Below are positions 4,491-24,653 of a DNA stretch of 64,000 bases, piece after piece (position 1 is the stretch's first letter; the number at the start of each line of letters is the position of its first letter). The translations under genes and the position numbers were made by a program. Source of the stretch: Tsuneonella dongtanensis (lineage in GTDB: Bacteria; Pseudomonadota; Alphaproteobacteria; Sphingomonadales; Sphingomonadaceae); the NCBI RefSeq assembly GCF_001698205.1, contig NZ_CP016591.1:62001-126000 (forward strand), written 5' to 3'. Under the pieces are notes generated by a model that saw only the letters and a list, made by a program, of their open reading frames with translations, made no database searches and was not told the origin of the DNA.

Positions 4491-4514
4491 CCGTTGTTCG
4501 GGTTTCAGCTGCGA

Positions 4515-8090: not shown

Positions 8091-8129
8091 ATGTTGCCGC
8101 AATGCAACATACTGACAAAAAAGTCAGTA
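8091..8129. promoter_or_regulatory. Two abutting perfect inverted repeats, candidate operators
   Basis: The first repeat has 7-bp arms ATGTTGC/GCAACAT separated by 6 nt (8091-8110). The second has 7-bp arms TACTGAC/GTCAGTA around six A (8110-8129), and they share one base. Equal arms and spacers of this size suit a TetR- or MarR-type dimer. They lie about 70-105 bp upstream of the candidate -35 box of the receptor gene and just after the oxygenase gene. No run of T follows on either strand to make them an obvious terminator. Confidence 0.45.
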
Positions 8130-8159
8130 AAGGCTCATCGCGGCGCGTCGCATGGCGAA

Positions 8160-9089
8160 TCAGGCGAGGTTTATCTCGCGAAGCCGCTGCTGCAGGAACT
8201 CGTGGCTCGAGATCGGCTCGGGGTGATCTTCGGGTCGCGCCGGGTCGATGCAGCTGTCGAGTGTGACGATGTCGAAGTCCGGGCGGAAGTGCAGGAAGAA
8301 CGGCATCGAGTAGCGGCTGCGATAGGCCGCCTCGCCCCGGGGATTGACCACCCGGTGCTGGGTCGACTTGAGGCGGCTGTTAGTGAGCCTGTCCAGCATG
8401 TCGCCGATGTTGACCACCAGCGCGCCTTCGGGCGTGTCGACGGCCTTCCATTCGCCCTTGGCGGTCAGCAGCTCCAGACCGGCTTCCTCGGCACCGAGGA
8501 GCAGCGTGATGGTGTTGATGTCGCCATGCGCCGCGGCGCGGATGGCGCCCTCTGCATGCGGTCCGTCGAGCGGCGGATAGTGGAGCAGCCGCATGACCGA
8601 GTTGCCGTCCTCGACCGTCGAGGCAAACCAGTCTTGCGGAAGGCCGAGGTGGATCGCGATCGCTTCGAGGACGCGGCCGCCGGCCTTTTCGAACGCCGCA
8701 TAGAGCTCGGTGAAAGTCTCGCGAAAACCCTCGACCTCGCTCGGCCAGACGTTGTCGGCCATGTATTCGGACAGGGGATGTCCTGCGGGCAGCTCGCGCC
8801 CGACGTGCCAGAACTCCTTGAGATCGTGGACCGCGGCATCCTTCGCCCGCTCGACGCCGAACGGGGTGTAACCGCGCGCGCCGCCTCCGCCTTCGATCTT
8901 GTAGGCCTTCTTGACCTCCTCAGGCAGCGCAAAGAACGCCTTCGAGAGTGCCTCCGCGCGCGCGATCAGGTCCGCGGGAATACCGTGGTCGCGGATGACG
9001 GCGAAGCCGTATTCGCGGAACGAGCGACCGAGTTCGTCGGCGACTTCGTCGAGTGGGCGGGCGATCGATAAGGAGGCGATTTCGGACAT
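8160..9089 (-). CDS. 2-oxoglutarate/Fe(II)-dependent oxygenase, isopenicillin-N-synthase-like
   Basis: The 309-residue cytosolic enzyme has the DIOX_N domain first (GFAVIRDHGIP near 29-38). The double-stranded beta-helix core follows, with iron ligands His188-x-Asp190 (AAHGDIN) and His245 (STQHRVV) and the co-substrate-binding Arg259-x-Ser261 (RYSMPF). Such enzymes hydroxylate or desaturate small molecules using 2-oxoglutarate and O2; the substrate cannot be assigned. The ATG at 9089 was chosen because it opens directly into the conserved N-domain, whereas upstream in-frame codons overlap the nucleoside transporter gene. The transporter gene ends 11 bp upstream, so the two are probably one operon; a nucleoside-derived substrate is possible but unproven. 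Confidence 0.85.
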   Translation of the reverse strand: MSEIASLSIARPLDEVADELGRSFREYGFAVIRDHGIPADLIARAEALSKAFFALPEEVKKAYKIEGGGGARGYTPFGVERAKDAAVHDLKEFWHVGRELPAGHPLSEYMADNVWPSEVEGFRETFTELYAAFEKAGGRVLEAIAIHLGLPQDWFASTVEDGNSVMRLLHYPPLDGPHAEGAIRAAAHGDINTITLLLGAEEAGLELLTAKGEWKAVDTPEGALVVNIGDMLDRLTNSRLKSTQHRVVNPRGEAAYRSRYSMPFFLHFRPDFDIVTLDSCIDPARPEDHPEPISSHEFLQQRLREINLA

Positions 9090-9100
9090 TGGTTGCGACT

Positions 9101-10623: not shown

Positions 10624-11310
10624 ATGAACGAAACCCTTTCGGCCCAGCCATCCGAGGTCCGCGTGCCACGCGCGCTGTTCGTCTATCTGCTGCTTTACGG
10701 CGGCATGACCGTGCTGGCGGGCGTCATGGCCTACAAGCAGGTCGCGCTCTGGCCGACGAGCCTTGCGGTCGAATCGGGCATCTTCGCGTTCTTGCTGCTG
10801 GTCGTGATCTCGAGCACCGTCTCGCAGCTCTACGGCGATGCACGGGCACGCCAGCTCGTGTGGTGGGGTTTCCTGCCCCTGTTGGTCTCGTCGCTCCTGA
10901 TGCAGCTCGTCCTCGCCCTGCCCGCTTCGTCCGAGATGGTGCAGTTCCGAGCGGACGACCTGACCGCGTTCGAACGCGTCCATTCGCAGCTCTGGCGCGT
11001 ATGGATGGCAGGGCCCGCGGCCTACATCGTCTCCCTGCTGCTCAACGTATGGATCTTCTCCAAGCTGCGCGGCGAGGGTGGTGCGGGCGGCACCCTGGGA
11101 ATCATGGTCCGCGGGGCGATCGCCTCCGCGCTGAGCCAGGCGATTGATTCGGTGATCTTCATCACCCTCGCCTTCTACGGCGAATTCGACATCACCAACC
11201 TGCTGATCGGGCAGGTCCTGGCAAAAGTCGCGCTGTCGATCGTGCTGGTCCCGCCGCTGATCGCGCTCGGCGTCAGCCTCGCCCGCCGATTGGACCGGGG
11301 CTCGGTCTAG
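10624..11310 (+). CDS. yhhQ: Queuosine precursor transporter (YhhQ / DUF165, VUT family)
   Basis: The 228-residue protein has six or seven hydrophobic segments. Family-typical stretches are VPRALFVYLLLYGGMTVLAG, SSTVSQLYGDARARQLVWWG, and SKLRGEGG with a later SALSQAIDSVIFITLAFYG. E. coli YhhQ imports 7-cyano-7-deazaguanine (preQ0/preQ1) for queuosine tRNA modification, and I infer the same role. An in-frame GTG lies 18 nt upstream; I prefer the ATG at 10624 because the extension is short and basic, though neither start has a good Shine-Dalgarno sequence. A terminator just upstream suggests control by transcription attenuation. Its stop overlaps the stop of the convergent RibB-like gene. Confidence 0.87.
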   Translation: MNETLSAQPSEVRVPRALFVYLLLYGGMTVLAGVMAYKQVALWPTSLAVESGIFAFLLLVVISSTVSQLYGDARARQLVWWGFLPLLVSSLLMQLVLALPASSEMVQFRADDLTAFERVHSQLWRVWMAGPAAYIVSLLLNVWIFSKLRGEGGAGGTLGIMVRGAIASALSQAIDSVIFITLAFYGEFDITNLLIGQVLAKVALSIVLVPPLIALGVSLARRLDRGSV

Positions 11311-11903
11311 CCGGCCCTCAGCAGGTCGCCGATGTCGGCGACCGGAATGCCGTGCCGGGCGAGGAAATCGCCCATGTCCTCGATGCGCGCCATCTCCCCG
11401 TCGTCGCGCATGATCGAGCAGATGACCGCAGCATCGCCCGCCCCGGCCCTGCGGCAGAGTTCGATTGCCGCCTCGGCCGCGGCGGGCCGCTCGGCGACGC
11501 CGCCCTCCGCCGTGATCAGCGGAAAGATGTGACCGGGGGAGACGATGTCGCTGGCGGTGGAGCCGTCCGCGACTGCGACCGCGATCGTATGCGCCCGGTC
11601 CGCAGCCGAGATGCCGGTCGATACCCCGCTCGCCGCCTCGATCGAACGACCGTGCGGACGGCCCGACTGGTTCTCGCGGCCCGGATTGATCAGCTCTATC
11701 CCGAGCCGCACCGCGCGCGCCGGGGTCACCGCGAGGCAGACGAGCCCGCGTCCATGCGTCGCCATGAAGTTGACCGCCTCGGCGCTGACATGCTTCGCGG
11801 CGACGCAGAAATCGATGTCGCCGCCCCGCAGGCGGTCACCGATGATCACGATGACGCGCCCTTCGGCGAGCGCCGCGAGCGCGGGCTGCAGCGGCCCGCT
11901 CAC
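11307..11903 (-). CDS. Divergent RibB (3,4-dihydroxy-2-butanone-4-phosphate synthase) homologue lacking the acidic loop
   Basis: The 198-residue protein keeps RibB hallmarks: TGISAADRAHTI (96-107), PGHIFPL (123-129) with the metal-binding His125, and an EAAIELCRRAG helix and IMRDDGEMAR near the C-terminus. The catalytic acidic loop, normally D-R-E-x-E-G-D, reads D-R-L-R-G-G-D (23-29). Both Glu are lost, and the Arg before PGH is Ser. It is therefore doubtful that it makes the riboflavin precursor; a changed reaction or a flavin-linked accessory role is possible. The GTG start overlaps the stop of the FMN reductase gene by 4 nt, and it is the last gene of the sulfoquinovose-type operon, whose monooxygenase needs reduced FMN. 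Confidence 0.75.
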   Translation of the reverse strand: MSGPLQPALAALAEGRVIVIIGDRLRGGDIDFCVAAKHVSAEAVNFMATHGRGLVCLAVTPARAVRLGIELINPGRENQSGRPHGRSIEAASGVSTGISAADRAHTIAVAVADGSTASDIVSPGHIFPLITAEGGVAERPAAAEAAIELCRRAGAGDAAVICSIMRDDGEMARIEDMGDFLARHGIPVADIGDLLRAG

Positions 11904-12475
11904 TGCTTGCCCTCCCCGAGCGCGAGCGCCGATGCGCCGCGAAACGTCTGCTTGCCGACGAGCTCGAGCTGCAGCCGCGCGCGGTCTTCGAGGCACTCGC
12001 CGTCGGGCGAGAACAGCCCGTGATAGACCTTGACCGTCGCGCCCATCGGCGTCGGCCAGCCGCGCAAGGCATGGACGATGGAGCGCAGCGTCTGCAGCGT
12101 GCTCATCGTCGCCTGGTCGCCATAGGCCGTTGCGATCAGGCCCACCGCGCGCCCGTCGAGATAGGGCCGCTCGTCCTTCGCCAGATCCTCCAGATAGTCG
12201 AGCGCGTTCTTGACCAGGCCGGAAATGCTTCCGTGGTATCCCGGCGCCGAGATGATCACGCCGTCGGCAAGACGAACCGCCTCGACGAGTTCGGCGCCGT
12301 CCTCGATGCCGTAGCCCTCGCCTCGGTAGTGGGGCAGCGCGCGCAGGTAGTCCCCGCCGAAGATCTTCACATCCGCCCCGGCAGCTTCGGCCGCAGCGCC
12401 GGCAAGCCGCATGGCCTGTTCGGTCGAACTTCCGGGGTTCACGGTGCCGCCGATACCGACGATACGGGTGGTCAT
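11900..12475 (-). CDS. NADPH-dependent FMN reductase (SsuE/MsuE-like, flavodoxin fold)
   Basis: The 191-residue flavoprotein has the phosphate-binding loop GGTVNPGSSTEQ near the N-terminus and APGYHGSISGLVKNALDYL in the middle, the flavin-binding and dimer signature of the NADPH_dep_FMN_red family. It would supply FMNH2 to the two-component monooxygenase encoded two genes upstream, as SsuE does for SsuD, or as the reductase does in the sulfoquinovose monooxygenase pathway. The ATG at 12475 overlaps the glpD stop (ATGA), and its own stop overlaps the RibB-like start (GTGA). The functional pairing is inferred from operon membership. Confidence 0.87.
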   Translation of the reverse strand: MTTRIVGIGGTVNPGSSTEQAMRLAGAAAEAAGADVKIFGGDYLRALPHYRGEGYGIEDGAELVEAVRLADGVIISAPGYHGSISGLVKNALDYLEDLAKDERPYLDGRAVGLIATAYGDQATMSTLQTLRSIVHALRGWPTPMGATVKVYHGLFSPDGECLEDRARLQLELVGKQTFRGASALALGEGKQ

Positions 12476-13956
12476 TGCGGGCACTCCTGCTGCATGTATT
12501 CCTGAAGCGCTGCGGTCTCTTCCGCCGAGAAGCGCAGGCCAAGCTTGGTACGGCGCCACAGCACGTCCTCGGCTGTGCGCGCCCATTCGCGAGTCATCAA
12601 GTGGCGCATTTCGCGCAACCTCAGGCCGTGGCCGAAATCCCGGCCGCAGTCGGACAGATCGGCGGCCCCGTCGAAGATCGCGAAGGCGGTGGTGCCGTAG
12701 GCACGCACCAGGCGATGCGCCGACCCTGCGAGGAACGGGAACCGCGCGGCAAAGTCCGCTTCCAGAGACGCGGCGCCATCGACCCTGAAGTCGCCCCCCG
12801 GAAGCGGCGCATTCCCGGTCCAGTCGTCGCCCTGCAGGCATGGCAGGCGGTGCGCCAGTTTCTCGACTGCTTCGGCGGCGAGGTGGCGATATGTGGTGAT
12901 CTTGCCGCCGTAGACGGTCAGCAGCGGCGCGCCCTCATCGGGCTCGGAAAGGTCGAGGTCGTATCCGCGTGTCGCCGCTTCCGGCCGGCCCGACCCGTCG
13001 TCGATGAGGGGACGGACGCCCGAGTAAGTCCACACCACGTCGTCGGGGGTCACGGGCTTGCGGAAGAAGCGGCTCGCTCCTTCGCACAGATAGGCGATCT
13101 CGTCGGCGCTGGCCTTGATCGGTCCCCCGTCGTGGTCGACGTCGGTGGTACCGATGAGCGTGAAATCCTCTTCGTATGGAATGGCGAAGAAGATGCGGCC
13201 GTCGGGCAGCTGGAAGAAATAGGCGAACGGGTGGTCGAACAGCTTGCGGACCACGATGTGCGAACCGCGCACTAGCCGCATGGCCTTGTCGGGCTCGAGA
13301 CCGCTGCCCGTCAGCAGGTCGATCACGCCGGGTCCTGCCGCATTCACCACGGCGCGCGCGTGGAACGTCTCTCCGCCCGCCGCGATGGTCCAGGCCTCGC
13401 CATCGCGGCGCAGCGCGGTGACCCGACACCGGGTCCGCACTTCGGCCCCACGATCCGCCGCGTCGCGCGCGTTGAGGACGACCAGGCGCGCATCGTCGAC
13501 CCAGCAGTCCGAATAGACGAAGGCGGTCGGGAATTCGGGCTTGAGCGGCACGCCCGCCGGATGGGTCGCGAGCGACACCGTCTCGGTGGCGGGCAGCCGC
13601 TTGCGGCCGCCGATATGGTCGTAGAGGAACAGTCCCGTGCGCACGAGCCAGCGCGGGCGCAAGCCGGGCACATGGGGCAGCACGAAGCGCATCGGCCACG
13701 CGATATGCGGAGCGATGCCCCACAGCCGCTCGCGTTCGGACAGGCTCTCGCGCACGAGCCCGAACTCGTAATGCTCGAGATAGCGCAAGCCGCCATGGAT
13801 GAGCTTGGTCGACGCCGACGAAGTGCCGCCGGCGAGGTCCCCCGCCTCGAGCAGGAGCACTTTCGCGCCACGCCCCGCCGCGTCGCGGGCGATCCCGCAG
13901 CCGTTCACCCCGCCGCCGATGACGGCAAGGTCGTAGAGAATTGACGCCTGGCTCAC
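12472..13956 (-). CDS. glpD: FAD-dependent glycerol-3-phosphate dehydrogenase
   Basis: The 494-residue membrane-associated flavoenzyme oxidises sn-glycerol-3-phosphate to dihydroxyacetone phosphate and passes electrons to quinone. The N-terminal FAD motif is DLAVIGGGVNGCGIARDAAGRG. Typical GlpD stretches follow: GTSSASTKLIHGGLRYLEHYEFGLVRESL, GSHIVV near 230, YSGVRPL, and a C-terminal helical domain with MRHLMTREWARTAEDVLWRRTKLGL. It starts 4 bp after the monooxygenase stop and overlaps the FMN reductase start. In this operon it may process glycerol freed from sulfoquinovosyl glycerol after phosphorylation; no glycerol kinase gene is in the window. Confidence 0.95.
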   Translation of the reverse strand: MSQASILYDLAVIGGGVNGCGIARDAAGRGAKVLLLEAGDLAGGTSSASTKLIHGGLRYLEHYEFGLVRESLSERERLWGIAPHIAWPMRFVLPHVPGLRPRWLVRTGLFLYDHIGGRKRLPATETVSLATHPAGVPLKPEFPTAFVYSDCWVDDARLVVLNARDAADRGAEVRTRCRVTALRRDGEAWTIAAGGETFHARAVVNAAGPGVIDLLTGSGLEPDKAMRLVRGSHIVVRKLFDHPFAYFFQLPDGRIFFAIPYEEDFTLIGTTDVDHDGGPIKASADEIAYLCEGASRFFRKPVTPDDVVWTYSGVRPLIDDGSGRPEAATRGYDLDLSEPDEGAPLLTVYGGKITTYRHLAAEAVEKLAHRLPCLQGDDWTGNAPLPGGDFRVDGAASLEADFAARFPFLAGSAHRLVRAYGTTAFAIFDGAADLSDCGRDFGHGLRLREMRHLMTREWARTAEDVLWRRTKLGLRFSAEETAALQEYMQQECPQ

Positions 13957-13960
13957 CGGA

Positions 13961-15055
13961 TCAGTCGAACTTCAGCGGCCCATGTTCGATGTGCGGCAGC
14001 ACGTAACGCGCGAACATGTCGCACTCGTTGACGTGGGGATAGCCCGAGAGGATGAACGCCTCGATCCCCTCGGCCTGATAGGCGCGCAGCTTGGCGAGCA
14101 CCTGGTCCGGCGTGCCGACGATCGCGGCGCCGCAGCCCGACCGGGCGCGACCGATACCGGTCCACAGGTTCTCCTCGACGAAGCCGTCGCCGTCAGCGGC
14201 GCCGCGCAGTTCGGCCTGGCGCTGCACGCCGTAGTTCTTCGCATCGAGCGAAGCCTCGCGAATAGCGCGGCCCTTCTCGTCGTCGAGCTTCGACAGCAGG
14301 CGGTCGGCGTAGGCGCGCGCCTCGTCCTCGGTCTCGCGCACGATCACATGGACGCGGTAGCCGAACTTGAGCGTACGGCCGTACTTCGCCGCCCGTTCGG
14401 TAAGGTCGGCGATGTTCTCGCGCACCTTGTCCATCGTGTCGGGCCACATGAGGTAGACATCGCAGCCCTCAGCTGCGCATTCGCGGGCTTCGTGGGACAG
14501 GCCGCCGAAATAGAATGGCGGGCACTTGCCGCTGATGGTCTTGATCCGCGGCGGATCGAGCTTGAGCTGGTAGTGCTCGCCCTGGTGATCGATGCTCTCG
14601 CCGTTGAGGAGCTGGCGGACGATCTTCATCACTTCGGTCGCACGGCCATAGCGCGGACCGCCGGGCATCGCCTGTCCCGGCATGTCGGACGAGATGATGT
14701 TGACGTTGAGGCGGCCTGCGGTGCCATCGGCGTTGGGGCCGAGGATACGGTCGAGCGTCGCGATCCGGCGCGCGAGCTGCGGGGGCCAGTCCTCTCCGAT
14801 GCGGGTCGCCCAGAGCAGCTTCATGCGGCGGAGCAGCGGCGCCATGGCTGCCGCGAACACCGTGGTGTCGAGCCCGAGCTGGTACCCCGAGGGCAGCAGG
14901 ATGTTGTCGAACCCGCCCTCTTCGGCGCGCAGGACGATGTTGCGGCAGTGCTCCCAGCTCGACTGGAGCTGCGGATCGGGCACGCCGAGAAACTCGTAGT
15001 CGTCGTCGCAGAGCGCGGAGAACCACGCGATTTCGCATTGTTGCGCTTGGGTCAT
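13961..15055 (-). CDS. smoC: LLM-class flavin-dependent monooxygenase, probable sulfoquinovose monooxygenase
   Basis: The 364-residue protein is a bacterial-luciferase-like TIM-barrel enzyme of the alkanesulfonate monooxygenase (SsuD) group. Recognisable pieces are AEEGGFDNILLPSGYQLGLDT near 43, ATRIGEDWPPQLARRIATLDRI, a GRLNVNIISSD strand, PPFYFGGLSHEA around 190, and a C-terminal GTPDQVLAKL. SsuD enzymes use FMNH2 and O2 to cleave C-S bonds of sulfonates, releasing sulfite and an aldehyde. SmoC does this on sulfoquinovose, giving 6-oxo-glucose. The substrate is inferred from context: the same operon encodes a sulfoquinovosidase, an aldo/keto reductase and an FMN reductase. The ATG at 15055 overlaps the reductase stop; longer in-frame extensions lie inside that gene. 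Confidence 0.82.
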   Translation of the reverse strand: MTQAQQCEIAWFSALCDDDYEFLGVPDPQLQSSWEHCRNIVLRAEEGGFDNILLPSGYQLGLDTTVFAAAMAPLLRRMKLLWATRIGEDWPPQLARRIATLDRILGPNADGTAGRLNVNIISSDMPGQAMPGGPRYGRATEVMKIVRQLLNGESIDHQGEHYQLKLDPPRIKTISGKCPPFYFGGLSHEARECAAEGCDVYLMWPDTMDKVRENIADLTERAAKYGRTLKFGYRVHVIVRETEDEARAYADRLLSKLDDEKGRAIREASLDAKNYGVQRQAELRGAADGDGFVEENLWTGIGRARSGCGAAIVGTPDQVLAKLRAYQAEGIEAFILSGYPHVNECDMFARYVLPHIEHGPLKFD

Positions 15056-15966
15056 GGAAGCCTCTCTCCTCGCGCGGCGACGAGCACCGCGTACCAATCC
15101 TGCCGGGTCCAGCGCATCGCCAGCGCCTGCGCGGCTTCGGCGATGCGCCCGGCGCTCTGCGAACCGACGATGGGGATGATCCCTGCCGGATGCGCCATCA
15201 TCCAGCCGTAGGCGGCAACGCTGCGACTGGCGCCCTGCTCCTTGCCGATCCGGTCGAGCTCGGCAGCGACTGCCTTGTCGCGCGCGCTTTCGGGCGAAAG
15301 CAGGCGGCCGCCTCCAAGCGGCGACCATGCGAGCGGGGTCAGCCCCAGCCGCATGGCCTGGTCGAGCTCGCCGTTCTCGAAGCAGTCGATGCGCAGCGGG
15401 CTGATCTCGGGCTGGGTCGCGACGAGCTTGTGCGTCAGGAAGTGCTGGAGCGCCTCGGTCTGCTGCTGCGTGAAGTTCGATACGCCGATGGACCGGATCT
15501 TCCCGCCGGTCACGGCATCGTCGAGCGCCCGGGCAACCTCCTGCGGGTGCGCCAGGATGTCGGGCCGGTGGACCTGCCACAGGTCGACCATGTCGACCTT
15601 GAGCCGCCGCAGCGATTCGTCGATCGCCTGCGCGAGATATTCGGTCGACTGGTCGTAGGGCAGCGGGGGCCGAATGCCGCCCTTGGTCGCCAGGACCATG
15701 CGAGCGCGAAGTCCCGGCTCGGCCGCGAGCACTTCGCCCAGCAGCGCCTCGGCATCGCCGAACCCGGCATTGCCGTCGAAACCATAAATGTCCGCGGTGT
15801 CGAGCAAGGTGATCCCGGCGTCGAGCGCGGCGTGCACGAGCTTTGCCGCCTCGCCCGCCGAACGACCGTTCTCGGCCAGGCGCCACATGCCCCAGGCAAT
15901 CGGCGACACGTCGATCCCGGTGTGCCCGAGCGACCGGGTGGCAGGCGGGGCGGGCAAAAGGCTCAT
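15052..15966 (-). CDS. smoB: Aldo/keto reductase, probable 6-oxo-glucose reductase of the sulfoquinovose pathway
   Basis: The 304-residue NAD(P)H-dependent reductase has the complete AKR catalytic tetrad: Asp56 and Tyr61 in DTADIYG, Lys95 in ATKGG and His133 in VHRPD. IGVSNFT near 170 and the coenzyme-binding PIVGSQS near 280 are also typical. In the sulfo-SMO pathway of Agrobacterium an AKR reduces 6-oxo-glucose to glucose; I infer that role from its place between the repressor and monooxygenase genes, with 4-nt ATGA overlaps on both sides. Another sugar aldehyde substrate cannot be excluded. Confidence 0.83.
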   Translation of the reverse strand: MSLLPAPPATRSLGHTGIDVSPIAWGMWRLAENGRSAGEAAKLVHAALDAGITLLDTADIYGFDGNAGFGDAEALLGEVLAAEPGLRARMVLATKGGIRPPLPYDQSTEYLAQAIDESLRRLKVDMVDLWQVHRPDILAHPQEVARALDDAVTGGKIRSIGVSNFTQQQTEALQHFLTHKLVATQPEISPLRIDCFENGELDQAMRLGLTPLAWSPLGGGRLLSPESARDKAVAAELDRIGKEQGASRSVAAYGWMMAHPAGIIPIVGSQSAGRIAEAAQALAMRWTRQDWYAVLVAARGERLP

Positions 15967-16976
15967 GCAGATCTCCGGGGCGGCGGAGCGACCGAAGCGC
16001 GCTCGACCAGTTGATGGGGCAGGCGGCGATGCTGTGTCTCGCCGCCCGCGATCAGGATTTCGGCCGCGGTGTGCGCCAGCTCGGCCATAGGCTGATGGAT
16101 CGTGGTCAGCGGCGGCCAGACGGTCCGCGCGAGCGTCGTGTCGTCGAACCCGGCGACCGACAGTTCGGACGGTACCTCGATCCCGCGCGTATGCGCCTCG
16201 GCAAGAACGCCGGCGGCCATGTCGTCGTTGGAAGCGAAGATCGCCGTCGGCGGCTGCGGCATGTCGAGGAGGACCCTCGCCGCGCGCATCCCGCTGTCGA
16301 AGTCGAACTCCCCGTCGATCACCAGCGCGGGTTCGAACGCGATACCCGCCCGATCGAGCGCCTTGCGATAGCCGTAGAGCCGTTCCTCGCTCGCCATGTG
16401 GCTCGGATGGCCTTTCACGAACCCGATCCGGCGGTGTCCATGGTTGACGAGATGCGTGGTCATGTCGTCGCCCGCCTGGACGTCGTCCATGAACACCGAA
16501 CTGGTGAGCGCGTGGTTCGTCCCGGGCGAAATCCGCACGAACGGGATGTCGAGGGTGTCGAGCACCGACAGCACCGGCGCGCAGTCGGTCACCGGAGACG
16601 ACAGGATGATCCCGTCGACGTGGGTTTCGGAGATCAGCCCTCGCACTTCCGCGCCCACCGACGGATCGTCGACGTCGACCGGCTGGGCGAGCAGGCGGAT
16701 GCCCTGCGCATGGCAGAAGTCCCAGCACCCCTTCTGGATCTGGAAGGTATAGTAGGGACTGTGATTGTCGTAGATCAGCGCGACCTGGTTCGACTTCGCA
16801 CCGGACAGGATCCGCGCAGCGACGCTGGGCCTGAAGTCCAGCTCGGCCATCGCGTCTTCGACCCGCTTGCGAGTCGCTTCGCTGACGTAGGGATGACCGT
16901 TGAGCACGCGGCTGACCGTCTTTACCGCCACCCCGGCGCGCGCGGCGACATCGCGGATGTTGGAACGGCCGCTCAT
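15963..16976 (-). CDS. LacI-family transcriptional repressor of the sulfoquinovose-type operon
   Basis: The 337-residue protein has an N-terminal LacI helix-turn-helix (IRDVAARAGVAVKTVSRVLNG, then the hinge helix near LDFRPSVAARIL). A periplasmic-binding-protein-like sensor domain follows, with NQVALIYDN, GHRRIGFVKGH, FASNDDMAAGVL and TTIHQP in canonical order. It lies second in the operon, coupled by ATGA overlaps to the upstream glycosidase and downstream reductase, so it is autoregulated. Its likely effector is sulfoquinovose or a derivative. Palindromes between the operon and the divergent receptor gene (19043-19091) are candidate operators. The Agrobacterium pathway uses a different regulator type. 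Confidence 0.9.
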   Translation of the reverse strand: MSGRSNIRDVAARAGVAVKTVSRVLNGHPYVSEATRKRVEDAMAELDFRPSVAARILSGAKSNQVALIYDNHSPYYTFQIQKGCWDFCHAQGIRLLAQPVDVDDPSVGAEVRGLISETHVDGIILSSPVTDCAPVLSVLDTLDIPFVRISPGTNHALTSSVFMDDVQAGDDMTTHLVNHGHRRIGFVKGHPSHMASEERLYGYRKALDRAGIAFEPALVIDGEFDFDSGMRAARVLLDMPQPPTAIFASNDDMAAGVLAEAHTRGIEVPSELSVAGFDDTTLARTVWPPLTTIHQPMAELAHTAAEILIAGGETQHRRLPHQLVERASVAPPPRRSA

Positions 16977-18973
16977 GCCGCCAGCGCTTTCGGCAGGCCT
17001 GCGAAGATCGCAGCGTGCGGGCTCCCGGGTCGGTAAAACACCGGAGGCTCGCCAACCGGCGCCGCCACTGTGTGCGTCCCGGGAGCGAAGTCGCGCCCCG
17101 ACCAGACGTGCCGCCACGGCGCATCGCCGGGCAGGACGACCTGCCGCGCTCTCGCGCCCTCTTCGACTACCGGTGCCACCATGAGGTCGGACCCGTAGAG
17201 ATACTGATCCCGCACCGCAAACAGGGCAGGGTCGTCCGGATATTCGAGAAACAGGGGTCGCTGGAGCGGGAGCCCGGTCTGGGCCGCTTCGTCGCTCAGC
17301 GCGCGAACGTATGGGGCGAGCGCGGCGTGCACGCGGCTCCATCGCGCGAAGCAGGCGAGAAGTTCCGGGGTGCTGTCGTACTGCAGGTTGTCGTCGGGCC
17401 GGTTGCCTTCGTGACTGCGCATGACGGGTGCGAACGCGGCCAGCTCGCACCAGCGCATGAGCAACTCCTCGGTCCGCACATTGCCGAGCAGCGAGGTGTA
17501 TCCGCCGCAGTCGGAATGGCTGTAGGCGTTTCCGACCAGCCCCGATGACAGCGCGGCGGTTATCACCGTGCCGATGCCGTCGTGGCGGGTGAAATCGACG
17601 CACTGGTCGCCCGCCCAGAGCAGGGGGCAATGCGCCTGGACGCCCGAAAACCCGGCGCGCATGAAGAAGACGGCGTCGCCGGTCTTACCGCGACTGGCCA
17701 GCGCGCGCGCGTTCACTTCCGCCCACAGCACCGGCCACCGGTTGTGCGCTTCCATCGGATCGCTGCCGTCGGCCAGCCTGAGATCGGTGGGAAGGTACTC
17801 GCCGAAGTCGGCCATCCAGCCCATGATGCCGCGGTCGAGCATTTCGCGACCGAGGACACGCTCGGCAAACCAGTCGCGCGTTTCCGCGCGGGTGAAGTCG
17901 ATCACCCCGCAATCGAACTCGCCGAAGTCGACGAGATACACCTCGTCGCTACCCTGCTGCAGGCAGAAATGCCCGCCCTCCAGCGCCTCGGCATAGAGTT
18001 CGGCGTCGTTGGACAGATACGGGTTGGCGTATGCGAGGAAGCGGATCCCGCGCCGGGCCAGCGCTTCGATCCGCGCTTCGAGATCGGGGTATCGCGCCGC
18101 ACTGCGCGCGCCGAGTTGCCAGTCCCAGAACAGGCGGCGACCAAAACTCGTCTCGCGGATGCCCGCCCAATCCTCGCACCACAGGCCGGAGATCGCGGCT
18201 CCGGCTTCGACGAAGCGCTCCAGCCGGTCGAAACTCGATGCCCCCGACTTGAGGCCGACGATCGCACCCCCGATCGCCCAGTCCGGCAAGGGAGGCTGGC
18301 GGCCGAAGCGGCCGGCAAGCTGGCCGACCAGCGCCTTGGGGCCTTCTGCGGCGAACAGTTCGAAACGGGCCATGCTCGACCACACCTCGACCGCGTGCGC
18401 GACCGGATCGGTGAAATCGAGCACGCTGTAGCAACTCGCGTCGAGGTGCACCGCGATCCAGCGCGACGTGAGGAACGTCGGTTGCGGATAGTTGGTGTGA
18501 TAGTAGTCGCCGCCGGCCATCCCGGCCTCGTCCATCGCACGGGTCAGCGCGGTCGACTTGTCGCGGCCCACCCCGGGCTCGCTGGTCCACATCGGAAACC
18601 GACGTCCGCTCAGCGCCAGGTAGCTCATCTGCTCGCCGCCGCCCCAAACGGTCTCACCCGGCTCTGCGTGAAAGCGAATGTAGATGCGATCGAACGCGGG
18701 ATCGTCGCAGCTGACGGTCAGCCCACCGTCCGACCAGTCGAGGCGAGCCCCGTCGAAACGGACGCCGGTCGGGGTCGCGCTCCACTCACCCAGATCGCGA
18801 CGGTCTCGCGGCGCATCGTCGATCCTGAAGTTGCCGCGAACCATCTCGATGTCCGGCGTTCCCCGGGCGATGGCCAGCGCAGGACAATCCGGGGCATGGC
18901 GCAACACGACCCGGCCGCCGAGAAGCAACTCGAATCCGCCATCGCGCGCCCTGAATTCGACCGTTTGCGCCAT
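16973..18973 (-). CDS. smoI: Sulfoquinovosidase (GH31), KERWY subtype
   Basis: The 666-residue enzyme aligns by eye along its whole length with E. coli YihQ: GGGEQMSYL, WTSEPGVGR, GGDYYHTNYPQPTF, RQPPLPDW, GWMADFGEYLPTD, SHEGNRP and PVFYRPGSP. The GH31 nucleophile is Asp389 (MADFGEY) and the acid/base Asp456 (WAGDQ). All five sulfonate-recognition positions known from YihQ (Q-Q-R-W-Y) and the Agrobacterium enzyme (K-E-R-W-Y) are present as Lys242 (GLKSG), Glu267 (WCEDW), Arg280 and Trp283 (GRRLFW) and Tyr492 (GGYTSL). It should release sulfoquinovose from sulfoquinovosyl glycerol or sulfolipid. No signal peptide is seen, so it is cytoplasmic. The ATG at 18973 follows GGGGGAGA; an in-frame start 66 nt upstream adds a non-family N-terminus. 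Confidence 0.93.
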   Translation of the reverse strand: MAQTVEFRARDGGFELLLGGRVVLRHAPDCPALAIARGTPDIEMVRGNFRIDDAPRDRRDLGEWSATPTGVRFDGARLDWSDGGLTVSCDDPAFDRIYIRFHAEPGETVWGGGEQMSYLALSGRRFPMWTSEPGVGRDKSTALTRAMDEAGMAGGDYYHTNYPQPTFLTSRWIAVHLDASCYSVLDFTDPVAHAVEVWSSMARFELFAAEGPKALVGQLAGRFGRQPPLPDWAIGGAIVGLKSGASSFDRLERFVEAGAAISGLWCEDWAGIRETSFGRRLFWDWQLGARSAARYPDLEARIEALARRGIRFLAYANPYLSNDAELYAEALEGGHFCLQQGSDEVYLVDFGEFDCGVIDFTRAETRDWFAERVLGREMLDRGIMGWMADFGEYLPTDLRLADGSDPMEAHNRWPVLWAEVNARALASRGKTGDAVFFMRAGFSGVQAHCPLLWAGDQCVDFTRHDGIGTVITAALSSGLVGNAYSHSDCGGYTSLLGNVRTEELLMRWCELAAFAPVMRSHEGNRPDDNLQYDSTPELLACFARWSRVHAALAPYVRALSDEAAQTGLPLQRPLFLEYPDDPALFAVRDQYLYGSDLMVAPVVEEGARARQVVLPGDAPWRHVWSGRDFAPGTHTVAAPVGEPPVFYRPGSPHAAIFAGLPKALAA

Positions 18974-19042
18974 TTCTCCCCCGGTTGCGTCCGCATAAAG
19001 GCCTGAAAAGCCGACTGCGCCGCCTGTCCCATATGACACCGC

Positions 19043-19091
19043 TTGACATACCGGGTCAATGCGCGCATTTCAAGGGCAACGAAAGTTCGTT
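19043..19091. promoter_or_regulatory. Divergent control region with three palindromes, candidate LacI operators
   Basis: Between the sulfoquinovosidase gene and the divergent receptor gene lie TTGAC-N7-GTCAA (19043-19059), the perfect 12-mer AATGCGCGCATT with central CG (19058-19069) and AACGAA-AG-TTCGTT (19078-19091). TTGACA at 19043-19048 could be the -35 box for the receptor; the 12-mer would then cover its weak -10. Central-CG palindromes are typical LacI-family sites, so the 12-mer is the best candidate. Assignment to the operon's own LacI protein is inference. Confidence 0.5.
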
Positions 19092-19109: not shown

Positions 19110-21446
19110 ATGATCCGTATGGGTTTCCGTTCGCGCGCGCTCGCGCTGTCGGGCAGCATGATCGCGCTTGTCGCGGCGAATCCGGCGCTCGCGCAAGATG
19201 CTTCCGATGCCACCGACGAGGGTGGGATCGAGGAGATCATCGTAACCGCGAACAAGGTCGCCGAGAACGTCCAGGACGTTCCCATCGCAATCACCGCGCT
19301 GACGTCTGATCGTCTCGAGACCGCCGGGACAACCAGCCTCGAAGGCATCACCCAGCTCGTTCCGTCGGTCACGTTCCGCAAGGGCACGACGAGCGCCAAC
19401 AGCGCCATCGTGATGCGCGGGGTCGGCACGATCACCTTCTCGATCGCCGCCGAGCCGAGCGTGTCGACCGTCGTCGACGGCATCGTCCTCAGCCGTTCGG
19501 GACAAGCGTTCATGGATCTCGTCGATGCCGAGCGGCTCGAAGTGCTGCGCGGCCCGCAGGGCACCCTGTTCGGCAAGAACGCCAGCGCCGGCCTCGTCAA
19601 CATCGTCTCGAAGGGTGGTACGGACAGCCTCGAGGCAGAGGCGCGCGCCGAGTACTTCGAAGGGGACGAGTATCGCCTGCGCGGGTCGCTTTCGGGTCCG
19701 CTCGGCACTGACCTGAGCGCGCGCGTGACCGGGTTCTACGGCAGTTACGATGGCAACATCACCAACGTGTTCGGCGGCCAGAACAACCAGGTCAACGGAT
19801 ATGAGCACTACGGCGCCCGCGGCATCCTCGACTATAACGGACCAAGTGCGCGGGTGCGCTTCATCGCTGACCTGTTTCGCGCCAACGACGATTGCTGCGC
19901 CGACGTGACGACCGTCAGCCGCGGCGCAGTCCTCGATGCCGAGCTGGGCCTGCCCGGCGGTGTCGCGCACGGCCTCGACCAGCGCTTCGTGAACCACAAC
20001 CTGGTCACGCAGACGCGCGACCGGCAATGGAGCCTCACCCTGTCGGGTGACCTTGACTTGAGCGATACGCATACGCTGAGCGTCGTCGGCGGATATCGCA
20101 ACTGGCGGAATACCGAGTTGCGCGAAGGCGATTTCCTGCCGCGCGCGATCGTGGGTACGGCCGAGCTCCACGATGAAGGTCTCGTGACAACCGAACAGCT
20201 GTCAGTCGAAGCGCGGATCGCATCGGACAGCGCTCTGCCGTTTTTCTACCAGGTCGGCGCCTTTGCCTGGCATTCGGACAACACTCAGATATTCACTCGC
20301 AGGGACATCACTTGCAGCACGTCGACGTTGCCCTTGGCGCCGAGCGGCGCCCGGCCTTGCAACGTAGCCGATACGGTCAATACGCTGTTCCCCACCGCCA
20401 CCTCGAACAGCGACGTCAGTTCGTCCAACTTCGCCGTGTTCGGCCAGGGGACCTTCCGCCTCTCGGACCTGATCGCGATCACCGGGGGCTTGCGCTACAC
20501 CTGGGACGACCTGTCGTATGTCCACGTCCGCGCGCCGGGCGTGAACGCGACCAACGGAGCTCCCGCAACGGGTCCGGGCATTTCGGGCAATCCCGCGGGC
20601 GGAACGATTGCTTCGGGCGGCAACGGTACGAACATCTCGCGCGGAAGCAGCACCAACGGCAACCTTTCGGGCAAGGCCGTCCTGCAGATCACCCCTTCGG
20701 ACGACGTGATGCTCTACGGCAGCTACACGCGCGGCTACAAGGGACCGGCGTTCAACGTCTTCTTCAACCACACCGCACCGACCAACGCGATCCCGATCGA
20801 CGAGGAAACGTCGGACGCGTTCGAAATCGGTGCCAAGACGCAGTTCCTCGACAACCGCGTCCAGCTCAACGTCGCGGCCTTCTCGGTCGAGTACGACGGG
20901 TTCCAGGCCAATAACTTCGTCACTCTCAACGGTGCGGTCGTAACGAACCTCACCAACGCCGGCACGGTGAAGTCGCAGGGCTTCGAAGTCGACATGCTCG
21001 CGGTTCCGGTGGACGGTCTTACCCTGCGCGCCAGCGCGGCCTATGCCGATGCCTTCGTGAAGCGGTTCAACCCGAATCCGCAGACCAACGCGCCCGACGC
21101 GCGCAACGGCACCCAGCTCCCGCTGGCGCCCAAGTTCGTCTACACGCTGGGCGCCGGCTATGAGGGCGATCTCGGCGGGATGAAGCTCTACCTCGACACC
21201 GATTTCCGCCACGTCAGCAGGCAGTTTTCCGACCTTGGCGAGAGCGGCCCGATCGACCCCTACGGAATCTGGAATGCCTCGGTCGGCTTCTCCGATGCCG
21301 ACGACCGTTATCGCCTGACGTTCCACGCCCGGAACATCACCGACGAGAGCTATGCGCTGCTCAACGTCAGCAACGGCCAGCGCCTGCAAATCCCGCGCGA
21401 TGCGGACCGGTACTTCGGCGTGAGCCTACGCGCGCGCATCCGGTAA
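19110..21446 (+). CDS. TonB-dependent receptor, candidate outer-membrane importer of sulfoquinovosides
   Basis: The 778-residue receptor has a signal peptide ending near residue 29 (AANPALAQD), the TonB box EEIIVTANK, a plug with RGPQGTLFGKNASAGLVNIVS, and a beta-barrel with late KSQGFEVDM and NITDESYALLN motifs. It ends RARIR rather than in the usual aromatic residue. The ATG at 19110 has GGGAGA 9 nt upstream and opens into the signal peptide; an earlier in-frame ATG (19059) lacks both. It is divergent from the sulfoquinovosidase operon across 136 bp carrying palindromes, which suggests shared LacI control and uptake of sulfoquinovose or its glyceride. The substrate is inferred from position only. 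Confidence 0.87.
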   Translation: MIRMGFRSRALALSGSMIALVAANPALAQDASDATDEGGIEEIIVTANKVAENVQDVPIAITALTSDRLETAGTTSLEGITQLVPSVTFRKGTTSANSAIVMRGVGTITFSIAAEPSVSTVVDGIVLSRSGQAFMDLVDAERLEVLRGPQGTLFGKNASAGLVNIVSKGGTDSLEAEARAEYFEGDEYRLRGSLSGPLGTDLSARVTGFYGSYDGNITNVFGGQNNQVNGYEHYGARGILDYNGPSARVRFIADLFRANDDCCADVTTVSRGAVLDAELGLPGGVAHGLDQRFVNHNLVTQTRDRQWSLTLSGDLDLSDTHTLSVVGGYRNWRNTELREGDFLPRAIVGTAELHDEGLVTTEQLSVEARIASDSALPFFYQVGAFAWHSDNTQIFTRRDITCSTSTLPLAPSGARPCNVADTVNTLFPTATSNSDVSSSNFAVFGQGTFRLSDLIAITGGLRYTWDDLSYVHVRAPGVNATNGAPATGPGISGNPAGGTIASGGNGTNISRGSSTNGNLSGKAVLQITPSDDVMLYGSYTRGYKGPAFNVFFNHTAPTNAIPIDEETSDAFEIGAKTQFLDNRVQLNVAAFSVEYDGFQANNFVTLNGAVVTNLTNAGTVKSQGFEVDMLAVPVDGLTLRASAAYADAFVKRFNPNPQTNAPDARNGTQLPLAPKFVYTLGAGYEGDLGGMKLYLDTDFRHVSRQFSDLGESGPIDPYGIWNASVGFSDADDRYRLTFHARNITDESYALLNVSNGQRLQIPRDADRYFGVSLRARIR

Positions 21447-21478
21447 TCGGACAAGCCCGTCGGGTCGGGCACAGCAGC

Positions 21479-21513
21479 GGCCGCGGAAGGAGACTTCCGC
21501 GGCCGTTTCCTTT
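21479..21513 (+). terminator. Intrinsic terminator of the receptor gene
   Basis: A perfect 11-bp GC-rich stem (21479-21489 with 21494-21504) with a GAGA tetraloop is followed by a T-rich tract at 21505-21513, 32 bp after the receptor stop. Confidence 0.85.
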
Positions 21514-21557
21514 GGCCGGCACACTGCTAGGATCGCCGGCACCGATATGGGTGGCCG

Positions 21558-22178
21558 ATGATCGATACTCCGCTGCTTCTCGCCTTCATCGCGGCCGCCG
21601 CGCTTCTGGCGATCACGCCCGGGGTCGATACGGCGATCGTCCTGAGGGCGGCGGCTGTGGACGGAAAGCGTTCGGCACTGCTGGCAGCGCTCGGCATCGG
21701 CACCGGCTGCCTTGCATGGGCTCTGGCGGTCTCGCTCGGCCTTGGCCCTCTGCTGGCTGCTTCGGAAATGGCCTACACCGCGCTCAAATTGGCGGGCGCC
21801 ACGTACCTCGTGTGGCTGGGAGCACGGATGCTCATGCAGCCGCGCGGCGCGTTCGCGCCGGACGTCAACGTCGGAACCGGCCGGGGAGCCTTCGCGCGCG
21901 GCCTCTTCACCAACCTCCTCAATCCCAAGGTCGGGGGATTCTACGTCAGCTTCTTGCCGCAGTTCGTGCCGGCAGGCGCGGACCTGGCCAGTTCTTCTCT
22001 GATCCTCGCCTGCATTCACATCGCGTTGTCGCTGGCGTGGTTCGGCGCGATCATCGCAGCGACGGGGCAGATCGGGCGCCTGCTCCGGCGCCCCGGCGCG
22101 GTCGGATGGCTCGACCGCGCGACCGGTGTGGTGCTGGTCGGCTTCGGCCTTCGCCTCGCGCTGTCGACGCGGTCCTGA
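21558..22178 (+). CDS. LysE-family translocator
   Basis: The 206-residue inner-membrane exporter of the LysE/RhtB family has about six hydrophobic segments. The N-terminal family motif is LLAITPGVDTAIVLRAAAVDGKRSALLAALGIGTG, and NLLNPKVGGFYVSFLPQF in the middle is diagnostic. Members export amino acids and related small metabolites; the substrate cannot be assigned. It stands alone after the receptor's terminator and its stop lies 3 bp from the convergent MFS stop. A role in the neighbouring sulfoquinovose locus, such as export of a by-product, is possible but not supported by family knowledge. Confidence 0.87.
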   Translation: MIDTPLLLAFIAAAALLAITPGVDTAIVLRAAAVDGKRSALLAALGIGTGCLAWALAVSLGLGPLLAASEMAYTALKLAGATYLVWLGARMLMQPRGAFAPDVNVGTGRGAFARGLFTNLLNPKVGGFYVSFLPQFVPAGADLASSSLILACIHIALSLAWFGAIIAATGQIGRLLRRPGAVGWLDRATGVVLVGFGLRLALSTRS

Positions 22179-22181
22179 GGG

Positions 22182-23453
22182 CTACTCGCCCTCGTCCTCA
22201 GCAACGATCCGCGGCACGAGGAAGTGCACCCAGGCAAGCGCCGTGAGATAGGCCAGCGCAGCGGCCCAGAACAGCGGGGCATAGCCGACGCCCGAGGTGA
22301 GCAGCGCGCCGGTCGCTTCCTGGATGCCGAAACCCGCGACGTTGCCGGCGATGGCACCGATCGCCATCACGGTGGCGACGCGGCGCGCGGGCACCGCATC
22401 GGCCGCGAAGCCGAAGATGTTCGTCGAGAAACCTTGGTGCGCGAAGAGACCGAGGCCGATGATCGCCGCCGCGGTCCAGGCGCTGTCGACCGTCAGCGCC
22501 AGCGGGATCGGCAGCACCGCGAGGCCATAGAGGAACATACCGGTCTTGCGCGCAGCGTTGACCGAGCGCCCCTTGCCGAGCAGCACGCCGAACAGCTTGC
22601 CCGCCGTCAGCGCGCCGACGGCCGCCATCGTGAACGCGAGCGCGGTCGGCCCGACGAGTTCGGACTGCGAGAGGTTGAACACCTTGTGGAACAGGTCGGG
22701 CAGCCAGAAGGTGAAGAACCACCAGAACATGTCGGTAATCGCCTTGGCGCCGGCGATCGCCCAGGTCTTGCGGTCGGACAGCGCCTCTCCGTAGGACGAG
22801 CGCACGGGTGCGCCCTCGACCGCCGCGGCACGCGGCAACGGCTTCAGCCGGCGCGTCCCCATGATCCAGAAGGCGAGCCAGACGAACCCCAGCAGGCCGG
22901 TAACGATGAAGGCCGCCTTCCACCCGAACACGACCGCGAAGGGCACGACAGTCAGCGGGGCAAGGATGTTGCCGATGTTGGGTGCGGTATTGACGATCCC
23001 CATGCCCATCGTGCGCTGACGGATCGGCAGGTATTCTGCCGCCGCCTTCACCGCCGCGGGCGTATTCACCGCCTCGAAAGCGACCAGCGCAACCCGCGCG
23101 GTGACGAACTGGGTCACCGTCGCCGCGACCGCGTGCGCCATGCCCGCAACCGACCACATCGCAACCGCGGCACCGTAGGCCAGCTTCACGCCGAAGCGGT
23201 CGATGATCCAGCCGACGAACAGCAGCGCCGCGGCGGCGGCAAGCTGGCTGGCGGACGCGAAGTGTGCGAATTCCGCATCGCCCCACCCGTACTCGGCAGA
23301 AATCGTCGGCTTCAGCAGCGAGAGGACCTGCCGGTCGACGTAATTGATGATCGTGCCAAAGAAGAGCAGCGCGATCAGCCAGTTGCGCGTGCGGGCCAGA
23401 GCCCGGTCTTCGGCAGCCTGATCTGCCGTGCTCGCGCTAACCCCGTCGGTCAT
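22182..23453 (-). CDS. MFS transporter, anion:cation symporter (ACS/ExuT-like)
   Basis: The 423-residue inner-membrane permease has 12 predicted helices. The N-terminal ACS signature is NYVDRQVLSLLKP. RVALVAFEAVNTPAAVKAAAEYLP with the following RQRTMGMGIVNTAPNIG matches hexuronate/galactonate-type transporters for anionic sugars. That suits sulfoquinovose, an anionic hexose derivative, so it is the best inner-membrane importer candidate for the locus. I used the ATG at 23453, which has GGGAG 8 nt upstream; a GTG three codons earlier is the alternative. It is divergent from the YeiH-type exporter gene across 78 bp, suggesting shared control. Confidence 0.87.
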   Translation of the reverse strand: MTDGVSASTADQAAEDRALARTRNWLIALLFFGTIINYVDRQVLSLLKPTISAEYGWGDAEFAHFASASQLAAAAALLFVGWIIDRFGVKLAYGAAVAMWSVAGMAHAVAATVTQFVTARVALVAFEAVNTPAAVKAAAEYLPIRQRTMGMGIVNTAPNIGNILAPLTVVPFAVVFGWKAAFIVTGLLGFVWLAFWIMGTRRLKPLPRAAAVEGAPVRSSYGEALSDRKTWAIAGAKAITDMFWWFFTFWLPDLFHKVFNLSQSELVGPTALAFTMAAVGALTAGKLFGVLLGKGRSVNAARKTGMFLYGLAVLPIPLALTVDSAWTAAAIIGLGLFAHQGFSTNIFGFAADAVPARRVATVMAIGAIAGNVAGFGIQEATGALLTSGVGYAPLFWAAALAYLTALAWVHFLVPRIVAEDEGE

Positions 23454-23531
23454 CCCCGCCACTCCCTTGCGCGCCCTTGCGGCGCGTCACGCTTGCACGA
23501 TACCCATTCGCGCGCGTAAGGGAAGGATAAT

Positions 23532-24653
23532 ATGACACCGTCGGACAATGGCGCCGCTAAGGGGCGGATCGACTGGGACGCGCTGCCCTATGGCGGCGAC
23601 CTGTTCGGCGAGATCTACCTGGCCGAAACGGCGCCGGCTCCGGTCGATGCGAAGCCGCCGCGCAAGCCCCTCTCCCGCTTTCTGCCCGGGCTCGCGGTGG
23701 TCGGTGTCGCCGCGGGAACGGCGGCGTGGCTGGCCGAGCATTACGGTTTCCCGATCATCCTCCTCGGCCTTCTCATCGGCCTCGCGCTCAACTTCGTCGC
23801 GCGCGAAGAGACGACGCATCCGGGACTCGACCTCGCAAGCCGAACCTGCCTGCGCTGGGGCATCGTTGCGCTGGGGTTCCAGGTCACGCTGGCGCAAGTG
23901 CTCGACCTCGGACCATGGCCCTTCGCTGCGCTCATCGCCATCATGCTGGTCGCCTTCTTCGCCGGGGTCGGCGGGGCGGCGGTATCGGGGCAGTCCCGCT
24001 ATGCTGGGATCCTTGCGGGCGGTGCGACCGCGATCTGCGGCGCGAGCGCGGCGCTGGCGCTGTATGGAATCATCGGGCGCGACCGTTTGAGCCAGGCGCA
24101 ATTCGCGCTGACGCTCGTGGGGGTCAGCCTCGCGAGCGCGCTGGCGATGTCGCTCTACCCGGCGATCGCGGGCGAGATGGGTCTCACCGACAGTCAGGCC
24201 GGGTTCCTGATCGGCGCCTCGATCCACGACGTCGCGCAGGCGATCGGCGGCGGCTTTACCTATTCGGACGCGGCGGGGTCCGAAGCGACGATCATCAAGC
24301 TTTCGCGGGTGGCCCTGCTCGGGCCGGCGATGATCCTGGTCGCGCTGTGGATCGGCAATTCGGCCGTGGATGCCCGCCAGCCGATCTGGCGCCGGGTTAC
24401 GCTGCCATGGTTCATCGTCGGCTTCGTGGCGCTGATGGCGGTGAACAGCACGGGCGTCGTGCCCCCCGCGGTTCAGGCAACCTTGATGACAGCATCCAAG
24501 ACGCTGCTGCTGTTCGCGGTCATCGCAACCGCGATGCGGTCCGACATGGCGCTCATCATGCGGCTCGGCTGGCGCGCCGCGACTCCCGTCGTGTGCGCCA
24601 CTCTGGCCAGCTTCCTCGCCGCGGTTGCCGCCCTCTGGCTGGGTGCCGCCTGA
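23532..24653 (+). CDS. YeiH-family putative sulfate/sulfite exporter (PSE family)
   Basis: The 373-residue protein has a hydrophilic N-terminus of about 45 residues and about ten membrane helices. Family features include GLLIGLALNF, the glycine-rich GVGGAAVSGQSRYAGILAGGATAICGASAALAL segment, and GFLIGASIHDVAQAIGGGF followed by KLSRVALLGP. The family (UPF0324/COG2855) is classed as putative sulfate exporters, and members occur beside sulfonate-degrading enzymes. Export of the sulfite or sulfate freed by the monooxygenase is the natural role here. AAGGGAAGG precedes the ATG at 23532. Transport direction and ion are family-level expectations, not shown by sequence. Confidence 0.86.
   Translation: MTPSDNGAAKGRIDWDALPYGGDLFGEIYLAETAPAPVDAKPPRKPLSRFLPGLAVVGVAAGTAAWLAEHYGFPIILLGLLIGLALNFVAREETTHPGLDLASRTCLRWGIVALGFQVTLAQVLDLGPWPFAALIAIMLVAFFAGVGGAAVSGQSRYAGILAGGATAICGASAALALYGIIGRDRLSQAQFALTLVGVSLASALAMSLYPAIAGEMGLTDSQAGFLIGASIHDVAQAIGGGFTYSDAAGSEATIIKLSRVALLGPAMILVALWIGNSAVDARQPIWRRVTLPWFIVGFVALMAVNSTGVVPPAVQATLMTASKTLLLFAVIATAMRSDMALIMRLGWRAATPVVCATLASFLAAVAALWLGAA

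Follow-up and report, generated by a model that had tools for sequence, protein, structure and literature searches.

A 64,000-nucleotide stretch of the Tsuneonella dongtanensis genome (hereafter the window; part of a single-contig genome of 3.0 Mb with an estimated completeness of 100%) carries an operon for the breakdown of sulfoquinovose (SQ), the sugar of plant sulfolipids, and next to it genes encoding a TonB-dependent receptor (TBDT), a permease of the major facilitator superfamily (MFS) and a YeiH-like membrane protein. We consider it very likely that this region is a LacI-repressed carbohydrate utilization locus containing a TBDT (CUT locus) dedicated to SQ, in which the TBDT and the MFS permease import SQ or SQ glycosides; judging from the sequences, the receptor, the permease and the putative exporter very probably form the import and waste-export system of SQ breakdown. 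The initial annotation had already interpreted these genes as a transport set, and this interpretation is now supported in silico by conserved linkage and by a LacI-type operator shared between both promoters, together with the gene identities and the co-segregation of the operator with one type of LacI regulator. The output of SQ is put at about 10 billion tons per year, and Novosphingobium is the dominant assimilator of 13C-SQ in mangrove water (PMC13372026). The analysis names candidates for the receptor, permease and exporter, together with a regulator and an operator sequence, for SQ uptake in sphingomonads, and the operator offers a DNA signature for locating the regulon in other genomes.

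Gene layout and linkage across the family

The enzyme operon runs on the minus strand from 18973 to 11307 in the order smoI, lacI, smoB, smoC, glpD, smoA-like, ribB, its genes overlapping (as smoC and smoB do) or nearly abutting. The three transport genes adjoin it, as initially annotated, and are intact open reading frames outside the operon, which by their orientation represent separate transcription units: the TBDT gene is divergent from smoI, with a common promoter region, the MFS gene is convergent with the TBDT gene and the lysE gene downstream of it, and yeiH is divergent from the MFS gene.

11307..11891, minus strand: ribB, 3,4-dihydroxy-2-butanone-4-phosphate synthase (PF00926)
11900..12475, minus strand: smoA-like flavin mononucleotide (FMN) reductase (PF03358)
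12472..13956, minus strand: glpD, glycerol-3-phosphate dehydrogenase (NF009906 and NF008899 above cut-off)
13961..15055, minus strand: smoC, SQ monooxygenase of the luciferase-like monooxygenase (LLM) family (PF00296; best solved relatives 7olf/7oh2)
15052..15966, minus strand: smoB, aldo-keto reductase (AKR), 6-oxo-glucose reductase (PF00248; best solved relatives 7bbz/7bby)
15963..16976, minus strand: LacI-family regulator, likely repressor of the regulon (PF00356 and PF13377; headpiece type co-segregates with the operator)
16973..18973, minus strand: smoI, GH31 sulfoquinovosidase (SQase; best solved relatives 5ohy/5ohs, then 5aed YihQ)
19034..19048, no strand assigned: operator 1, TGACACCGCTTGACA, in the divergent promoter region of smoI and TBDT1
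19110..21446, plus strand: TonB-dependent receptor (TBDT1), candidate receptor for SQ or SQ glycosides (PF07715 and PF00593)
22182..23462, minus strand: MFS permease, ACS/SLC17-like (DgoT-like), candidate inner-membrane importer of SQ or SQ glycosides (PF07690)
23532..24653, plus strand: YeiH-like membrane protein, candidate sulfite/sulfate exporter (PF03601)
23533..23547, no strand assigned: operator 2, TGACACCGTCGGACA, in the divergent region of the MFS gene and yeiH, overlapping the yeiH ATG in this genome

SmoI aligns along its length with the SQases 5ohy/5ohs (E 1e-241), and a SmoC-type monooxygenase stands side by side with a SmoB-type reductase, which is the signature of the sulfo-SMO/ASMO pathway; a TBDT, an inner-membrane transporter, a regulator and a degradative enzyme are co-located, which is the gene content of a CUT locus. 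The TBDT gene probably starts at 19110, with GGGAGAG ahead of it, within a longest open reading frame that begins at 19059. The closest named relative at the smo locus is Tsuneonella litorea (SmoC identity 93%).

Presence and absence were surveyed in 398 genomes of the family, representing 96 genera (family cut-offs: SmoC, E <= 1e-90; TBDT, E <= 1e-130; MFS, E <= 1e-85). SmoC was found in 104 genomes and 37 genera, and it is this patchy distribution of the sulfo-SMO pathway that makes such a test possible. Of the 94 genomes with the TBDT family, 91 are SmoC-positive, and in 83 the TBDT and SmoC genes share a contig and lie no more than 15 kb apart; of the 98 genomes with the MFS family, 92 are SmoC-positive, and in 61 the MFS gene is equally close to smoC. 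A search for homologous loci that keep the enzymes without these transporters had been set beforehand as the check on the initial annotation, and within the family the survey did not refute the annotation, since 91/104 SmoC-positive genomes carry the TBDT and 92/104 the MFS protein, against almost no SmoC-negative ones. Three SmoC-negative genomes with the TBDT (G268, G302 and G328; 76, 69 and 95% complete, respectively) keep the TBDT and MFS genes side by side.

A comparison of 80 relatives' loci of up to 20 kb each gave the same picture, the TBDT family (at least 38% identity) being present in 70 and lying on the strand opposite to smoC in 68, and in 45 no more than 1 kb separates the TBDT and MFS genes. 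Two identity classes occupy the same position (about 62-90% and about 38-46% for the TBDT; 53-91% and about 36-50% for the MFS protein), and thus the slot is often retained despite a differing protein. In a plasmid collection, each of the 7 records that encode a member of the TBDT family is a SmoC plasmid, and in pLA3 of Novosphingobium pentaromativorans US6-1 the TBDT gene adjoins an SQase-lacI-AKR-LLM-glpD-glycerol kinase cluster. Further examples come from Erythrobacter, Porphyrobacter and Blastomonas; Caulobacter sp. HMWF025 and Nitrospirillum amazonense provide more distant ones. The adjacency of the TBDT, MFS and yeiH genes to the operon, being conserved across the family, goes far beyond chance.

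The putative shared operator and the LacI-family regulator

Across the 3.0-Mb genome the core element TGACACCGNNNGACA is matched exactly at just two places, window positions 19034 (between smoI and the TBDT gene) and 23533 (between the MFS gene and yeiH), and a control pattern had none genome-wide. The smoI-TBDT intergenic regions of the relatives differ in length and sequence, yet TGACACCGCTTGACATA is common to them. A looser form, TGACANCGNNNGACA, gave 69 sites in the 80 loci, none of them within a mapped gene, whereas 0.45 were expected from windowed shuffles. It is present between smoI and the TBDT gene in 41 of the 42 loci with a close LacI and smoI, and 26 of these have a second site at the MFS or yeiH promoter, a count to be read with the fact that some loci end short of that promoter (in the two followed further, L239 and L240, the second site was present). 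The site is retained where glpD or smoA comes after the MFS gene. In five genomes of one genus the MFS-yeiH-glpD genes are remote from the smo locus; going by the listed coordinates the distance is 281 kb in one and 310 kb in another, and the remaining three have them on a separate contig. At these remote sites the MFS-yeiH promoter contains TGACACCGCAAGACA, and TGACACCGCTAGACA is present at the smo locus of these five genomes.

Two simpler explanations of the element were rejected. Operator 2 overlaps the ATG of yeiH and reads MTPxD in the window, but it is not mere coding sequence, since many relatives have an immediate stop in that frame, or a base other than A ahead of TG, and still keep the motif, which is also present upstream of glpD or smoA. 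Nor is the element a plain -35 box, as operator 2 has no TTGACA.

The occurrence of the element follows the type of regulator. Where the LacI headpiece reads [VI]KTVSR..N[GDN]H.YV with AARIL[SA]G, the element is found in the locus in every case, and where the headpiece has other sequences (mostly NKE.YV and AAR[TAS]LAG) it is found in none. At least two exact matches to TGACACCGNNNGACA were obtained genome-wide in 42/104 SmoC-positive versus 18/294 SmoC-negative genomes. On account of the shared element and its co-segregation with the headpiece type, the linked LacI is likely to be the regulator of a single regulon composed of the enzymes, the TBDT, the MFS permease and the YeiH-like protein, and often glpD. 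Three SmoC-negative genomes that belong to a single genus (g75; G196, G237 and G273) each contain TGACACCGGTTGACA at three separate places, perhaps as the operator for a related LacI regulon.

Alternative roles of the three transport proteins

Several observations weigh against the SQ-dedicated CUT locus proposed here. At the cut-offs used, 13/104 SmoC-positive genomes have no member of the TBDT family and 12/104 none of the MFS family; loci with other LacI types are devoid of the element; the nearest solved structures of the TBDT are siderophore receptors, and its ligand is not readable from fold or sequence; and YeiH-like proteins (E <= 1e-40) are found in 85/104 SmoC-positive but also in 72/294 SmoC-negative genomes, and are thus enriched with SmoC rather than exclusive to it. 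The Fisher p-values for the linkage of the TBDT, MFS and YeiH-like families (3.6e-71, 1e-68 and 6e-25, respectively) treat genomes as independent and are too small because shared ancestry is ignored; the near-exclusive pairing of TBDT and MFS with SmoC spans about 34 genera and does not depend on these values. The word "complete", applied to the transport shell in the initial annotation, is slightly too strong for a set with a non-exclusive YeiH-like gene and putative substrates for all three proteins.

The role of the YeiH-like protein as a sulfite or sulfate exporter is less certain than the import roles of the TBDT and the MFS permease. The protein shares the Pfam domain of the putative sulfate exporter family (PF03601, 171 bits vs a cut-off of 24.5) and its gene is tied here to a sulfite-releasing sulfonate pathway, but it scores under the cut-off of TIGR00698, the YeiH putative sulfate exporter model (101.2 vs 232.6 bits), so that the family label is looser than first implied, and it remains a putative exporter; a search of PDB sequences gave no match. 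The sulfite formed by SmoC has to be dealt with by oxidation, assimilation or export, and the YeiH-like protein is the candidate exporter of the regulon. It is quite conceivable, though we lean against it, that the protein acts on another anion or in general sulfur homeostasis and is merely co-regulated or co-located, as would fit the low TIGR00698 score, the SmoC-negative genomes that contain it (two of them with glpD and smoA alongside but without smoC) and the six TauE-family proteins of this genome, which could serve as sulfite exporters instead. In contrast, the strong enrichment among SmoC-positive genomes, the operator at the yeiH promoter even in the remote loci and the presence of a putative sulfate exporter near smoC in Ruegeria TM1040 argue for export within the SQ regulon. 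The genome also encodes one PF00174 protein. In the two SmoC-negative genomes mentioned (G228 and G368, of the window's genus; L228 5135-8261 and L229 5719-8959) yeiH is divergent from glpD and a gene for a SmoA-like FMN reductase, and no smoC, TBDT1, MFS gene or operator was found in these loci, which may be what is left of a lost cluster or may put the genes to another use.

The plug (PF07715) and barrel (PF00593) domains of the TBDT score above cut-off, as in TonB-dependent receptors, and its model (pLDDT 82.7) has an ordinary TBDT fold resembling FyuA (4epa) and other solved TBDTs. Assigning a ligand by fold or sequence was abandoned, the matches being mostly receptors for siderophores and other metal complexes, and we infer SQ or an SQ glycoside as the ligand from linkage and regulation alone. 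It is very unlikely that the protein takes up siderophores or other metal complexes and lies beside the operon by chance, with only the MFS permease serving SQ and the sugar crossing the outer membrane via porins. SQ is small enough to pass porins, and siderophore receptors indeed head the NCBIfam, PDB and fold comparisons; such matches are, however, expected because siderophore receptors dominate TBDT profiles, and the chance placement is contradicted by the 91/94 TBDT-containing genomes that are SmoC-positive, mostly with the two genes within 15 kb, and by the promoter region and operator common to the TBDT and SQase genes. A speculative extension of the SQ-receptor role, which we regard as unlikely, is that the TBDT is dedicated to sulfolipid pieces larger than SQ, lyso-sulfoquinovosyl diacylglycerol (lyso-SQDG) or SQDG itself and not only SQ-glycerol; if true, TonB-driven sulfolipid scavenging would be common to sphingomonads and extend to Caulobacter, Phenylobacterium and Nitrospirillum.

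The MFS permease has PF07690 above cut-off and a DgoT-like fold (model mean pLDDT 90.6; best PDB matches 6e9n/6e9o, TM-score 0.73-0.78), and these DgoT structures are its best solved relatives by sequence as well; its top NCBIfam match, TIGR00893 (D-galactonate transporter of the ACS type), reaches 123.5 bits against a cut-off of 395, hence the ACS label given initially applies only loosely. Compared with DgoT, the D-galactonate:H+ symporter of E. coli (PMC6532931), the permease is only about 22% identical but keeps the residues aligned with Tyr44, Asp46, Arg47 and Glu133, the last three of which (D43, R44 and E130) are invariant in 47 sequences. The positions aligned with the galactonate contacts Tyr79 and Gln164 are replaced, and Lys240 is invariant in the family; these altered positions together with K240 might suit a sulfonate. 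A further alternative, that the MFS protein exports a product or by-product while another transporter imports SQ, is hardly probable: transport direction is unreadable from sequence and the E. coli MFS protein YihP exports the sulfonate product 2,3-dihydroxypropane-1-sulfonate (DHPS; PMC12890257), but the sulfo-SMO pathway yields no organosulfonate by-product (PMC9594981), the positions aligned with the proton-coupling residues of DgoT are kept, a related MFS gene comes after the SQase gene in a cluster where a TauD-type dioxygenase replaces smoC, and inspection of the window genes near the operon showed no ATP-binding cassette (ABC) or tripartite ATP-independent periplasmic (TRAP) importer. 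In two SmoC-positive genomes the MFS gene has an in-frame stop (G073, TAG, L110 3557-4762; G242, TGA, L079 2533-3786), perhaps reflecting decaying copies or sequencing errors. The dioxygenase-containing cluster belongs to the SmoC-negative sphingomonad G237 (L235, G237:C1:2062000-2074000, 1719-10006), where the TauD-type gene stands beside genes for a SmoB-like reductase, an SQase (63%), the related MFS protein (58%) and an MFS_2 sugar transporter; it may encode the dioxygenase pathway (sulfo-SDO), which has been reported from Gammaproteobacteria.

Other genes of the neighborhood were considered as well. The three transport genes of the initial list were right, but the list omitted a LysE/RhtB-type exporter gene:

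21558..22178, plus strand: LysE/RhtB-type exporter gene (PF01810)

This gene was found in none of the 80 relatives' loci compared and was rejected as a member of the transport set, its presence in the window being probably incidental. Past yeiH, the window contains at 24733-33300 a second TBDT (1040 aa), an acetylesterase-like protein, a DctA transporter and two open reading frames resembling the two-component regulators of DctA; none of these (second TBDT, esterase, dctA/dctBD) is conserved at the relatives' smo loci, and they were likewise rejected. The ribB gene, which closes the smo operon in the window, is present in 22/80 relatives' loci, mostly adjoining smoA, and may boost the flavin supply to the flavin-dependent monooxygenase.

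Proposed mechanism and comparison with known systems

In the scheme we propose, LacI binding, substrates, transport direction and inducer are all deduced. The TBDT, energized by TonB, would take SQ or one of its glycosides, SQ-glycerol being the likeliest, through the outer membrane, and the DgoT-like permease would carry it into the cytoplasm with protons. By-eye inspection from the assumed start showed no clear signal peptide on the SQase, and for this reason SQ glycosides would have to enter the cytoplasm whole, with the MFS protein as the conserved candidate for their passage through the inner membrane. The SQase would then cleave the glycoside into SQ and glycerol, SmoC/SmoA and SmoB would convert SQ into glucose and sulfite, and the YeiH-like protein would remove sulfite or sulfate. 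The release of glycerol would explain the presence of glpD in the regulon, its product using the glycerol once phosphorylated; one FGGY-type kinase is encoded elsewhere in this genome. LacI bound at TGACACCGNNNGACA in the two divergent promoters would shut the smoI operon and the TBDT, MFS and yeiH genes, until released by the sugar or a product.

The sulfo-SMO/ASMO pathway is already known (PMC9594981, PMC12890257, PMC13372026). In the literature on sulfoquinovose and TonB no TBDT for SQ was apparent from titles, abstracts and word counts, the primary study of N. aromaticivorans not being among the papers covered, and the searches made gave no description of how sphingomonads import SQ. What appears to be new is therefore the pairing of the sulfo-SMO pathway with an importer of the CUT type, presumably for a new substrate; the pathway and the CUT design themselves are known.

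The operon resembles the sulfo-SMO/sulfo-ASMO systems of Agrobacterium (smo) and Novosphingobium aromaticivorans (PMC9594981) in its SQase, SQ monooxygenase, flavin reductase and 6-oxo-glucose reductase and, by prediction, in complete use of the SQ carbon. In Agrobacterium, however, an ABC importer takes up SQ-glycerol (PMC9594981), consistent with the contrast drawn in the initial annotation, whereas the window has a TBDT and an MFS permease together with a LacI regulator, and its operon includes glpD and ribB. As an importer, the locus is closer to the sux CUT locus of Xanthomonas campestris (PMC1790865), where a TBDT, an inner-membrane sugar transporter, a LacI-family repressor and a sugar enzyme belong to one regulon, as is probable here; it differs from sux in its putative sulfonated sugar substrate, in the added putative sulfur exporter and in a permease that is DgoT/ACS-like, while SuxC is described as being of the Na+-melibiose/H+ cotransporter type. 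Outside the sphingomonads, the smo enzymes do occur without the TBDT and MFS genes, and the check set beforehand holds only within the group: in Rhizobium sp. WSM4643 a sugar ABC cassette adjoins smoC, and in Ruegeria TM1040 smoC is adjoined by a TRAP transporter, with the putative sulfate exporter about 7 kb off. Since the smo enzymes pair with ABC or TRAP importers in these bacteria, the transport module is exchangeable between lineages, similar desulfonation enzymes being combined with differing importers (TBDT/MFS, ABC or TRAP) according to lineage.

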